From NCBI GenBank assembly GCA_945860245.1, contig CAMAPO010000007.1:1-60499 (forward strand): a stretch of DNA of 60,499 nt, given 5' to 3'. The notes under the pieces were generated by a model. It saw only the letters and a program-made list of their open reading frames with translations. It had not been told where the DNA came from and did not search any database. Shown piece by piece: positions 38,381 to 42,441 of this stretch; within the stretch, counting starts at the first letter, position 1; each line of letters opens with the position of its first letter. The translations under genes were made by a program, and so were the position numbers. Source of the DNA: Bifidobacterium breve (GTDB lineage: Bacteria; Actinomycetota; Actinomycetes; Nanopelagicales; Nanopelagicaceae).

Positions 38381-39286
38381 GTGAATGAATTAAACGCTGC
38401 CGGAATTTATGATCCGCAACTGCGCGCATCTTATGAAGAGTGCAAGCGTTTAAATTCTCTCCACGGTAAGACCTATTATCTGGCAACCTTGCTGCTTCCT
38501 GCTGCTAAGCGTCCATTTGTTCACGCCTTGTATGGTTTTGCGCGATATGCCGATGAAATTGTTGATGACCTATCTTCAACGTTGACGCCTGCTGAGAAAG
38601 CAGAGGTGCTAAGCAAGTGGAGTTCAGAAGTTTTAGCAGGACTTAAATCTGGGACTACCAGTGATGCAGTTGGTAAGGCGCTAATTGATACAGTGCAACG
38701 CTTTGCAATTCCGCATCAACACTTTATAGATTTTCTACACTCAATGGAGATGGATCTGACCATCACGCAATATAAAACTTACGAAGATCTATATAAATAC
38801 GTATATGGCTCGGCAGCGGTAATTGGCTTGGAAATGGTGCCAATTTTGGGAGGCGATACCGTTAATTCGTTAGCTGCCGCTAAAGATCTAGGTGTCGCTT
38901 TTCAATTAGCTAACTTCATCCGCGATGTTGCCGAAGATCTAGACCGTGGCCGTATTTATCTACCACTTGATGAATTGGCAGAACATGGCGTAACTCCTGA
39001 GATGCTATTTGCCCGCAAGTTGACCCCCGAAATAATTAGCGCTTTAAAGTTTCAGATATCCCGAGTCAGGCAATTACAAAAGGCGGCAGAGCCAGGCATC
39101 GCGCTATTGGATAAGACCAGCCGGCCGTGTATCCGCGCAGCAAGTGAGCTCTACTGTGGAATTGTTGATGAGGTTGAAAAGATTGGCTATGACATCTTTG
39201 ATAAACGCGCGAAAACTTCTACCTCCCGCCGCGCACGAGTGGCTGCACGCGCCTATATCGACGCAGTTATCGCTCGCATCGGCTAA
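38381..39286 (+). CDS. crtB: Phytoene synthase
   Basis: CrtB joins two geranylgeranyl diphosphates to phytoene. The 301-residue protein starts with GTG directly after the crtI stop. Motifs: FVHALYGFARYADEIVDDL with the first DxxxD site, YGSAAVIGLEMVPILG, and FQLANFIRDVAEDLDRGRIYLP with the second aspartate motif. It ends the core carotenoid operon; the TPP riboswitch of the next gene begins only a few bases after its stop. Confidence 0.96.
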   Translation: MNELNAAGIYDPQLRASYEECKRLNSLHGKTYYLATLLLPAAKRPFVHALYGFARYADEIVDDLSSTLTPAEKAEVLSKWSSEVLAGLKSGTTSDAVGKALIDTVQRFAIPHQHFIDFLHSMEMDLTITQYKTYEDLYKYVYGSAAVIGLEMVPILGGDTVNSLAAAKDLGVAFQLANFIRDVAEDLDRGRIYLPLDELAEHGVTPEMLFARKLTPEIISALKFQISRVRQLQKAAEPGIALLDKTSRPCIRAASELYCGIVDEVEKIGYDIFDKRAKTSTSRRARVAARAYIDAVIARIG

Positions 39287-39292
39287 AGTATT

Positions 39293-39379
39293 TAATGCGG
39301 GAGCCGCTAATACGGCTGAGAGGATCTGAGATTCAGATCGACCGCTTGACCCATCCGATAATGCGGATGCGGAAAGGAA
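39293..39379 (+). ncRNA. Thiamine pyrophosphate (TPP) riboswitch
   Basis: The leader shows the THI-element core: GCGGGAGCCG, a short loop, CGGCTGAGAGG (conserved GGCUGAGA), a variable P3a hairpin (GATCTGAGATTCAGATC), GACCGC closing the GCGG arm, and TTGACCCATCCG-ATAAT-GCGGATGCGG-AAAGGA corresponding to the conserved pyrophosphate-sensing helix. The 3' end overlaps the AAAGGA ribosome binding site 7 nt before the GTG start of the transporter gene, so control is probably at translation initiation with repression by TPP. Identification is by eye, not by covariance model. Confidence 0.92.
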
Positions 39380-39385
39380 TTATTT

Positions 39386-39997
39386 GTGCCATCTATATTT
39401 AATTTTCTATCTTATACTTTGATAATAATCTGGGGTTATGAACTTTCCTATTTAGAATTCGTTGCCTTAATCGCATCTTTAATCGGCGTAGCACTCGGCA
39501 TCACCGGCAGACGTATAACTTGGCCCTGGTGGGCAATTAGCTCCATCCTTTACGGGATCCTATTTTTACAATGGGAACTCTTTGCCAGCGCCGCATTGCA
39601 AATTGTCTTTATCATCGCCGCACTTTTTGGTTGGTTTGGCTGGGAACCAACTGGGGCTAAACCGGGACCGCTAAAAAATAAATACCGCGCAACCACCCTG
39701 GTTGCCATAATTTTGGCAACCCTGGCGCTTGCTCCAATTCTAAAAAGTTGGGGCGCGGCATCAACGTATGCTGATGCAGTTTTATTCTTTGGTTCCCTTG
39801 CCGCCCAATTTTTTATGGTCTATCAAAAGTATGAAACTTGGATACTCTGGTTAGTAGTTGATGCGGGATATGTTGCCCTCTATGCCACACAGGATCTCTT
39901 ATTCACATCACTACTTTATTTAGTTTTCACAATTCTGGCGGCACTGGGATGGGGTAAATGGTATGGATCTCATCGCAGCGCTATCCGATCTATGTAA
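39386..39997 (+). CDS. pnuT: PnuC-family vitamin transporter, predicted thiamine transporter PnuT
   Basis: A 203-residue membrane protein with about seven segments, of the PnuC family (facilitators for nicotinamide riboside, riboflavin or thiamine). Seen: ELSYLEFVALIASLIGVALGI in part, ITWPWWAISSILYGILFLQW in part, FGWFGWEPTG, MVYQKYETWILWLVVDAGYV in part. The start is GTG 39386 with AAAGGA before it. The TPP riboswitch in the leader makes thiamine the likely substrate, which is the definition of PnuT. PnuC-type uptake needs intracellular phosphorylation to trap the vitamin, and the next gene is a kinase-like protein overlapping by 35 nt. Confidence 0.88.
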   Translation: MPSIFNFLSYTLIIIWGYELSYLEFVALIASLIGVALGITGRRITWPWWAISSILYGILFLQWELFASAALQIVFIIAALFGWFGWEPTGAKPGPLKNKYRATTLVAIILATLALAPILKSWGAASTYADAVLFFGSLAAQFFMVYQKYETWILWLVVDAGYVALYATQDLLFTSLLYLVFTILAALGWGKWYGSHRSAIRSM

Positions 39998-40499
39998 GGA
40001 ACGGAATTCGCCCATCATTGCAATTGATGGGCCGGCTGGCGCTGGTAAAACTACTTTGGCGCACGAAATTTATTTAGCGCTATCGGTGCAGATGTCTGTG
40101 AATGTTTTCCATATGGATGATTTATACGATGGTTGGGATAACGCGCTCGGTGAGGATTTGACGAAGGTATTGCTTTATTTAACTGATCAACATAAAGGAA
40201 ATAGACCAGCCAAAATCAAGAAATATAACTGGACTACCTCTTCTTTCGAAGAGAGTGAGCAACTAGCACCAGCAGATTTGCTGATTCTGGAGGGCGTTGG
40301 AAGCGGTGATAAAGAGCTGCAAGATGATTTAGCGGCTTTGATCTGGATAGATATCGACCCAGAAATTGGCGTGAAACGAGTCATTGATCGCGACGGAGCG
40401 CAAGTCGCAGATGAAATGAAAAGGTGGCTTGGCACACAGCAGAAATATTTCTCTCAACACTCAACGCGTGAAAAGGCAGATTTCATACTAACTACATAA
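39963..40499 (+). CDS. P-loop kinase, uridine-kinase-like, in a TPP-switched operon
   Basis: A 178-residue P-loop protein of the uridine kinase-like group. Seen: Walker A IAIDGPAGAGKTTLA at residues 20-34, a hydrophobic strand with FHMDDLYDGWD (residues of the Asp-Asp type that bind the acceptor), LLILEGVGSG as the second strand, and RVIDRDG as a lid-like arginine region. It overlaps pnuT by 35 nt and is thus under the TPP riboswitch. By context it is a candidate thiamine kinase or pyrophosphokinase that traps imported thiamine; it does not look like the standard thiamine pyrophosphokinase fold. The assignment is an inference. Confidence 0.82.
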   Translation: MDLIAALSDLCKERNSPIIAIDGPAGAGKTTLAHEIYLALSVQMSVNVFHMDDLYDGWDNALGEDLTKVLLYLTDQHKGNRPAKIKKYNWTTSSFEESEQLAPADLLILEGVGSGDKELQDDLAALIWIDIDPEIGVKRVIDRDGAQVADEMKRWLGTQQKYFSQHSTREKADFILTT

Positions 40500-40509
40500 A
40501 ATTGTAGAT

Positions 40510-42441
40510 ATGTCTGACCTTACTGGCGAGCTAATTGATGGGCGCTATCAACTCATCCGCCAGATGGCAGCCGGTGGTATGGCCACAATTTATGAGGCGC
40601 TAGATACTCGCCTTGATCGCAAAGTTGCTGTAAAGATTATGCATCCGCACTTAGCGCAAGATGAGCAATTTGTAGAGCGCTTTATCCGCGAAGCTAAAGC
40701 ATCTGCTGCCTTATCGCATCCAAATATTGTCTCCGTTCAGGATCAGGGATGGAATCAGCACGGTAGTCCAGCAGTCTTTTTAGTAATGGAGTTAGTTGAG
40801 GGCCACACGCTGCGCGAATATTTAAATGAACAAGGTGCGTTGACAGTTTCCGCGGGGATTAAATTCTTACTACCTGTGTTAAGCGCTTTAGCAGCAGCGC
40901 ATAAGGTAGGAATCGTCCATCGCGACATTAAGCCAGACAATATCCTTATCTCTAAGGAAGGCAGAATTAAGATAGCCGACTTCGGATTGGCTAAAGGTCC
41001 ACTTCTTGGAACGACTATGACTGCCGAATCGAGCATTGTCTTAGGGAGCGTTTCATACCTCTCCCCCGAACAAGTACAACGCGGTATCGCTGATTCCCGT
41101 AGCGATGTGTATTCAGCAGGAATTACCGCCTTTGAAATATTTACAGGTGAAAAACCTTATGCCGGTGCAGAACCAATTCAAATTGCATATATGCATGTCA
41201 ATGAACGCATTCCGCTAATGAGCACCAAGCGCAGCGGGATTCCGCCAGAATTAGACCAACTAATTTATCGCGCAACTAATTCAGATCCCGATGCCCGCCC
41301 TAGCAATGGCGCTGAATTCCATCAAGCCCTAACCGCAATTTCTCAAGCGCTTGATCCAACACAGAAACAACTAAGTCTCGAGTTAGATATACCTATTGCT
41401 CCGATGCGCCCGGCATCGCAGAAACCATCTCGCCGGGAACGGGCGCGAATCGAAAAGGAAAAAACTGTGGCGCTAAAGAAGATAGAAAATACTGGAGAAA
41501 ATAAGAAGCCGCAAAGTAAAGAGACGACCGCTCAACTGCGTAAAAAGAAGAAGATCAGTAAGCGCGTTCGCCGTAATCGCTATATAGCAGCTGGGTTAGC
41601 AGTCATGCTCGGAGTTGTTGGTTGGTATGCCCTGGTTGGCCCAGGTTCTAAAGTTGTGGTGCCATCCATTGTTGGCGCTACTGAAAAGGAAGCGAATAAA
41701 TCACTCGGCCCACTTGGACTAACACTAGTAATCTCCGAAAAGAGATTTGACGAAGATATTTCAACAGGAAAAATTATCGAATCAGATCCTTCAGGTGGAG
41801 GCAAACTCGATCCCGGTGGCGCAGTAAAGGTAGTTATCTCAAAAGGTCCAGAACGTTATGAAATTCCATCCTTAGTTGGCTTAACTCCTGAAGCAGCCGT
41901 TAATTCACTAGCGAAATACCCCGTAAAAGTTGGCGAGTTAAAGGAAGTATTTAATGAGAAGACCCCCAAAGGTTTTGTGATTTCGACTTCTCCTGCTGCT
42001 GGCGAGAAGGTAAAGCGCGATGCGACTATCGATTTGCTAGTTAGCAAAGGGGTAGAGACTTTTGATGTTGCTTCCTATGTCGGTAAATCCGCTGATCAAG
42101 CCCTTAACGAGTTAACCGAAGCCGGATTTGATGTAGATACAGTTTCTCAATACAGCGAAAAAGATCCCGGAGAGGTTATTTCTCAACTTCCTTCGGGCGG
42201 TGCACCGCTAGAAAAAGGCGCAAAGATTACTTTGACTATTTCCAAGGGGTCGCAATACGTCGCTATCCCTAATGTCTCCTCTTTAACCGAAGCAAAGGCA
42301 CGCGCAGCACTTAACGATCTCGAACTTAAAGTTGTGGTCAAAAAAATTGGCGCTAAGAAGGTGAAGCAGGTAATAAACATCTCGCCTAAAGAAGGCACTA
42401 AGGTCAAACGAGGCAGTACGGTAACTATCACTGTAGGGTAA
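40510..42441 (+). CDS. pknB: Serine/threonine protein kinase with four PASTA domains
   Basis: PknB-type kinases sense muropeptides or lipid II and regulate cell wall synthesis and division. The 643-residue protein has a kinase domain (about residues 9-275) with VAVKIMHPHLA (ATP lysine), catalytic loop HRDIKPDNILI and ADFGLAK. A charged juxtamembrane region follows (lysine-rich), then one membrane segment at about residues 356-376 and four extracytoplasmic PASTA repeats that each end in a VxVVxSKG-type motif. In other actinobacteria pknB lies in a cluster with pbpA and rodA, but here it is alone between the kinase-like gene and nfo. Confidence 0.95.
   Translation: MSDLTGELIDGRYQLIRQMAAGGMATIYEALDTRLDRKVAVKIMHPHLAQDEQFVERFIREAKASAALSHPNIVSVQDQGWNQHGSPAVFLVMELVEGHTLREYLNEQGALTVSAGIKFLLPVLSALAAAHKVGIVHRDIKPDNILISKEGRIKIADFGLAKGPLLGTTMTAESSIVLGSVSYLSPEQVQRGIADSRSDVYSAGITAFEIFTGEKPYAGAEPIQIAYMHVNERIPLMSTKRSGIPPELDQLIYRATNSDPDARPSNGAEFHQALTAISQALDPTQKQLSLELDIPIAPMRPASQKPSRRERARIEKEKTVALKKIENTGENKKPQSKETTAQLRKKKKISKRVRRNRYIAAGLAVMLGVVGWYALVGPGSKVVVPSIVGATEKEANKSLGPLGLTLVISEKRFDEDISTGKIIESDPSGGGKLDPGGAVKVVISKGPERYEIPSLVGLTPEAAVNSLAKYPVKVGELKEVFNEKTPKGFVISTSPAAGEKVKRDATIDLLVSKGVETFDVASYVGKSADQALNELTEAGFDVDTVSQYSEKDPGEVISQLPSGGAPLEKGAKITLTISKGSQYVAIPNVSSLTEAKARAALNDLELKVVVKKIGAKKVKQVINISPKEGTKVKRGSTVTITVG

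Follow-up and report, generated by a model that had tools for sequence, protein, structure and literature searches.

A predicted thiamine-salvage operon of acI actinobacteria that joins a TPP riboswitch and a PnuC-family importer to a candidate P-loop thiamine kinase

The DNA analyzed here (the window, 60,499 nucleotides) belongs, as contig C7, to an assembly of 1.39 Mb. Its source genome is a Candidatus Planktophila-like member of the Nanopelagicaceae (acI), and the named relatives in this family include both Candidatus Planktophila lacus and acI strain IMCC26103. On the forward strand of the window, a slot bordered on the left by crtB (38381-39286) and on the right by a gene for a pknB-like PASTA Ser/Thr protein kinase (40510-42441) holds a TPP riboswitch aptamer (39287-39391), a GTG-initiated pnuT gene for a PnuC-family predicted thiamine importer (39386-39997), and a gene for a 178-amino acid, PRK06547-like P-loop kinase that we predict to phosphorylate thiamine (39963-40499). 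A sequence-only reading of this DNA had placed a TPP riboswitch, a pnuT-like gene and a P-loop kinase gene in operon order with a 35-nt overlap between the genes, and all three elements are found at the positions it gave, the overlap being exactly 35 nt. A second pnuT-kinase copy occurs in the same assembly (G000:C36:2254-2787, locus L002); it lies on a 5.5-kb contig that is 97.6% identical to another species, so it was rejected as a genuine duplicate and is probably bin contamination.

The riboswitch was matched to RF00059 (39287-39391, + strand) by a covariance model search of 301 nt, with 39.1 bits and an E value of 1.8e-6. This element does not reach the RF00059 gathering score of 54.3 bits, its relatives score 31-42 bits, and standard annotation misses the riboswitch because its score lies under gathering. 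An Rfam scan of the whole window at the gathering threshold missed it, an RF00059 search of the source genome returned no match, and the survey of riboswitches in family genomes needed a family-specific model (R1). The P1 stem of the aptamer (39287-39300) is unconserved in the family, which is probably why the riboswitch scores low in Rfam and escapes standard annotation. The match is not a chance one, because orthologous sites recur 5' of pnuT in relatives, with compensatory changes in P3a and P4/P5 in a 23-sequence alignment that covers many genera. When the structure was placed on 15 Planktophila-type sequences, 99.7% of cells were paired (20-39% in slid controls) and 29 double-change cells were observed, versus 12.1 in shuffles. 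The CUGAGA pyrimidine sensor is present and the P2/P3 and P4/P5 helices are preserved via compensatory change; judged by these comparisons, the window element is a divergent RF00059 variant. An overlap between the riboswitch and the pnuT ribosome-binding site had also been claimed, and it is borne out because the 3' strand of P4 (G39371-G39372), within the P4/P5 pyrophosphate-sensor hairpin (39348-39378), forms the 5' part of the Shine-Dalgarno sequence GGAAAGGA (39371-39378), which ends seven bases 5' of the GTG at 39386. The P4 hairpin would therefore be expected to sequester the ribosome-binding site.

The pnuT product contains a full-length NMN_transporter domain (PF04973, 125.1 bits, E 3.8e-36, positions 1-174 of 175) that scores above the cut-off. 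Its predicted substrate, thiamine, follows from the riboswitch and from a 2017 paper which described acI as thiamine auxotrophs and put forward, as PnuT, a PnuC-like gene preceded by a THI element (PMC5301498); acI auxotrophies and thiamine transporters are also treated in PMC5574706, and PnuT in PMC5613172. The order riboswitch-pnuT-kinase was found in every inspected genus with pnuT, so the gene pair, whose conservation the sequence-only reading had asked about, holds across these genera. The gap or overlap between the two genes is always small, the first conserved motif of the kinase beginning -1 to 95 nt from the pnuT stop at 43 loci, and this spacing would fit translational coupling.

The kinase had been described as a uridine-kinase-like protein with a Walker A and a DD motif that is unlike the standard thiamine pyrophosphokinase. 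This description agrees with the presence of GPAGAGKT and MDDLY, with a UCK/PRK/PanK-group P-loop fold in a structure search that used an AlphaFold2 model (pLDDT 94.8), and with the finding of no TPK_catalytic (PF04263) match in the kinase. The closest solved folds are 1rz3 (Z 18.1), UCK2 (Z 17.9) and the Tth uridine kinase (Z 17.6), and other matches include pantothenate kinases (Z about 16-18), phosphoribulokinases and NRK1 (Z 12.0); with rows that differ by a Z of under 1 counted as tied, the fold names no substrate because the top values are tied. The best NCBIfam match is NF005115 / PRK06547 hypothetical protein, which covers nearly the full length (1e-25) at 90.1 bits and misses the curated cut-off of 173, as other actinobacterial relatives also do (78-146 bits). 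The equivalog cut-offs for uridine kinase (Udk) are missed (37.9 vs 220.3 for TIGR00235 and 45.1 vs 180 for PRK05480). Position 93, which follows the [YF]D[FW] motif and which we take to be equivalent to the His/Tyr base-specificity residue of uridine kinase, is variable, with His in 2/41 sequences. The invariant residues are the Walker A loop, D52, Y55, G57, W58, W90, E110-G111, R139 and R143-D144. A search of viral contigs found no relatives.

To place this enzyme in a pathway, five markers (the kinase, PnuC-type genes, ThiL, TPK_catalytic and ThiE) were profiled in the same 201 family genomes. The kinase is present in 186, PnuC-type genes in 185 and ThiL in 190, and ThiE scores above the cut-off in 7. 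Whether kinase-bearing genomes also have a TPK has a clear answer, as PF04263 was found in 0/201. A genome with ThiL that lacks ThiE and TPK needs a source of thiamine monophosphate (TMP), for which a thiamine kinase is the simplest candidate. Good genomes (completeness of 90% or more, contamination of 5% or less) number 99, and the kinase is missing from just three of them, G005, G020 and G032, each of which is ThiE-positive (Fisher's test p = 6e-5, uncorrected for relatedness); the kinase absences in Nanopelagicaceae may represent only one or two evolutionary events. In the whole set, G044 and G014 are likewise ThiE-positive and kinase-negative, and each of the other ten genomes without the kinase has a completeness below 90%.

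The lack of a canonical TPK in the family would also suit a pyrophosphokinase with a new fold that makes TPP from thiamine in one step (thiamine + ATP -> TPP + AMP), a single enzyme that would close the pathway and leave ThiL unneeded for salvage. However, ThiL is kept in 98/99 of the good, streamlined genomes, nearly all of them without ThiE, where it would then have no obvious substrate, and the fold relatives of the kinase transfer one phosphate, so we regard this reaction as improbable. A thiamine kinase is favored over it because ThiL is kept. The closed genome G091 encodes just one further clear homologue, a PRK09270-type kinase, and an APH-like protein considered as a ThiK weakly resembles methylthioribose kinase; this APH-like protein is the one alternative candidate left for a thiamine kinase, though an unlikely one.

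The kinase is also found in genomes that appear to take up thiamine by other means. For example, in 11 genomes without the pnuT unit (G011, G021, G033, G077, G094, G101, G112, G118, G154, G160 and G182, from genera g4, g7, g8, g12 and g16), a TPP riboswitch precedes a gene for a ThiB-family substrate-binding protein of a ThiB-type ABC importer, and the kinase is present in 11/11 and ThiE in 0/11 of them. Because these ThiB-importer genomes keep the kinase, it goes with thiamine uptake in general and not specifically with PnuT. Two genomes are positive for both ThiE and the kinase: in G003, thiC and thiB each follow a TPP switch, and in G076 the same is true of a thiC-like gene and of the gene for the alternative importer, a YkoE-like protein (PF09819) that may carry HMP and hence offers weaker support. 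In the ThiE-positive, kinase-negative G005, TPP switches precede thiO and the HMP permease gene cytX. Exceptions to the pattern are G155 and G165, which keep the kinase with only doubtful riboswitch matches and no importer identified, and G100, which keeps it with no riboswitch match.

In the kinase-bearing family members inspected, the kinase gene is flanked by crt genes on one side and pknB on the other, whether or not pnuT is present. The same slot in ThiE-positive relatives contains thiE, a Rv2175c-like gene, thiO, thiS and thiG (g6) or thiE and thiO (g15), and thiE and thiO also lie beside pknB in f19, whose genomes are of Streptomyces size, and in families f2, f17 and f39. We infer that the slot is an ancestral actinobacterial thiamine locus where riboswitch-pnuT-kinase has taken the place of the biosynthetic genes. 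Since the kinase stays alone in the slot of pnuT-less genomes, it could be argued that it lies behind pnuT only because both occupy an ancient crt-pknB position. This explanation is very improbable, given that family f39 has the pair at a different locus (riboswitch-pnuT-kinase lies at an unrelated site in the ThiE-negative G328), that the tight pnuT-kinase overlap extends across genera, and that the slot itself appears to be the ancestral thiamine locus. The ThiE-positive f39 genome G337 is not among the kinase-bearing genomes. Three further observations concern this region. A lycopene cyclase gene pair adjoins the slot in g4 (L045 4257-4900) and g6 (L297 10847-11475) and is absent there in the window; a TPP switch lies between thiE and thiO in g6 and g15; and thiE/thiO occur beside pknB, often with crt or metF, in several Actinomycetia families (L297 10847-16682, L298-L302, L304, L306, L308).

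Beyond the family, the kinase was found in 161/251 Actinomycetia genomes sampled, mostly beside unrelated, non-thiamine genes. Outside the order it is present in 30/57 ThiE-negative versus 105/167 ThiE-positive genomes, so no class-wide association between ThiE loss and the kinase was found (Fisher p = 0.21). Most of its invariant residues persist across the class, the common active-site signature being W58, W90, D52, E110, R139 and R143-D144. Matches to PF04263 above the cut-off occur in 94/246 Actinomycetia genomes; all are pieces of ~40 amino acids (e.g. G273:C57:4168-4284), most in ORFs of ~400 amino acids that we presume to encode SteA-like proteins, and they were rejected as TPK, leaving no full-length TPK in the class sample. 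Automatic annotation could mistake these partial matches for TPK. A ThiBPQ-like cluster adjoining the kinase at L201 was also rejected, as it is closer to phosphonate-type ABC transporters. In f6 and f40 (L200, L206), the neighbors of the kinase gene include hydantoinase/oxoprolinase-type and CoA-transferase-like genes (identified by eye), which might hint at another substrate.

Given its class-wide occurrence with no link to ThiE loss outside the order, this protein may be a thiamine kinase throughout the actinobacteria, or it may have a different function and have been recruited in Nanopelagicales. The first option, in which the PRK06547-like family would be a general P-loop thiamine kinase of Actinomycetia unrelated to ThiK and TPK, is one that we propose only tentatively, at somewhat below even chances. 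Because the active-site signature is the same class-wide, the thiamine reading weakens if the ancestral substrate differs. The kinase could instead act on a nucleoside, nicotinamide riboside, pantothenate or a sugar in acI as well and owe its place in the operon to something else, with TMP obtained by direct uptake or from another enzyme; the non-thiamine contexts across the class and the proximity of its fold to uridine kinase, pantothenate kinase and phosphoribulokinase are in keeping with this, and in enterics TMP and TPP can be transported by ThiBPQ systems. Yet in the family genomes the pnuT-kinase pair is preceded by what is usually the only TPP riboswitch found, an independent riboswitch-pnuT-kinase unit exists in f39, the kinase survives the importer swap and occupies a former thi slot, and the His/Tyr specificity position of uridine kinase is unconserved. 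A different substrate is thus unlikely, although it deserves more weight than the other two alternatives discussed above.

Genomic context makes thiamine kinase the most likely identity of this enzyme, and the window probably encodes a thiamine-salvage operon, a reading that we hold with reasonable confidence. When TPP is scarce, the ribosome-binding site would be free and pnuT and the overlapping kinase gene would be translated together. PnuT would import free thiamine, the P-loop kinase would use ATP to convert it to TMP and so trap it in the cell, and ThiL, encoded elsewhere, would convert TMP to TPP, which would bind the riboswitch and shut the operon. The kinase would in this way supply the TMP formerly supplied by thiE in prototrophic ancestors; its substrate and product, as well as the sense of riboswitch control, are predictions. 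The sequence-only reading had suggested a non-orthologous thiamine kinase or pyrophosphokinase. Comparative genomics gives good support to its proposal of a thiamine-phosphorylating kinase through the absence of TPK in the family, the conserved gene pair, a presence that tracks thiamine uptake and the former thiE slot, and its pyrophosphokinase option is disfavored by the retention of ThiL. As acI are thiamine auxotrophs without an annotated enzyme that phosphorylates the imported vitamin, naming a candidate opens this gap to experiment. If the prediction is true, it would add a third fold for thiamine phosphorylation, give a function to a class-wide actinobacterial protein family, and provide a case in which a salvage operon controlled by a TPP riboswitch took over the very site of a biosynthetic locus.

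Several known systems share features with this one. The enterobacterial ThiK/YcfN catalyzes the reaction predicted here (thiamine + ATP -> TMP, followed by ThiL), but it has an aminoglycoside-phosphotransferase-like fold, whereas the acI enzyme is a P-loop kinase. In gut Bacteroides, PnuT works with a thiamine pyrophosphokinase under TPP riboswitch control and the vitamin is trapped by phosphorylation; PnuC-type thiamine uptake, riboswitch control and (as predicted) trapping are shared with acI, but TPK (PF04263) is absent here and the predicted acI route has two steps through ThiL. The pairing of PnuC with nicotinamide riboside kinase likewise combines a PnuC-family facilitator with a uridine-kinase-like P-loop kinase, and the acI unit differs in being TPP-regulated, in its thiamine locus and in its predicted substrate. 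NF005115/PRK06547, the best NCBIfam match but one below the cut-off, is a family without an assigned function. The nearest precedent is from the same lineage, as PMC5301498 describes acI, which it reports to outnumber all other bacteria in most freshwater lakes, as having a riboswitch-PnuC-family arrangement with predicted thiamine transport and as missing nearly all thiamine de novo and salvage enzymes. The passages on thiamine in that paper and in PMC5574706 do not mention the kinase, and a literature search found no paper on a PRK06547-like kinase. The riboswitch and PnuT of acI were already described in PMC5301498, and the kinase appears to be the new part.
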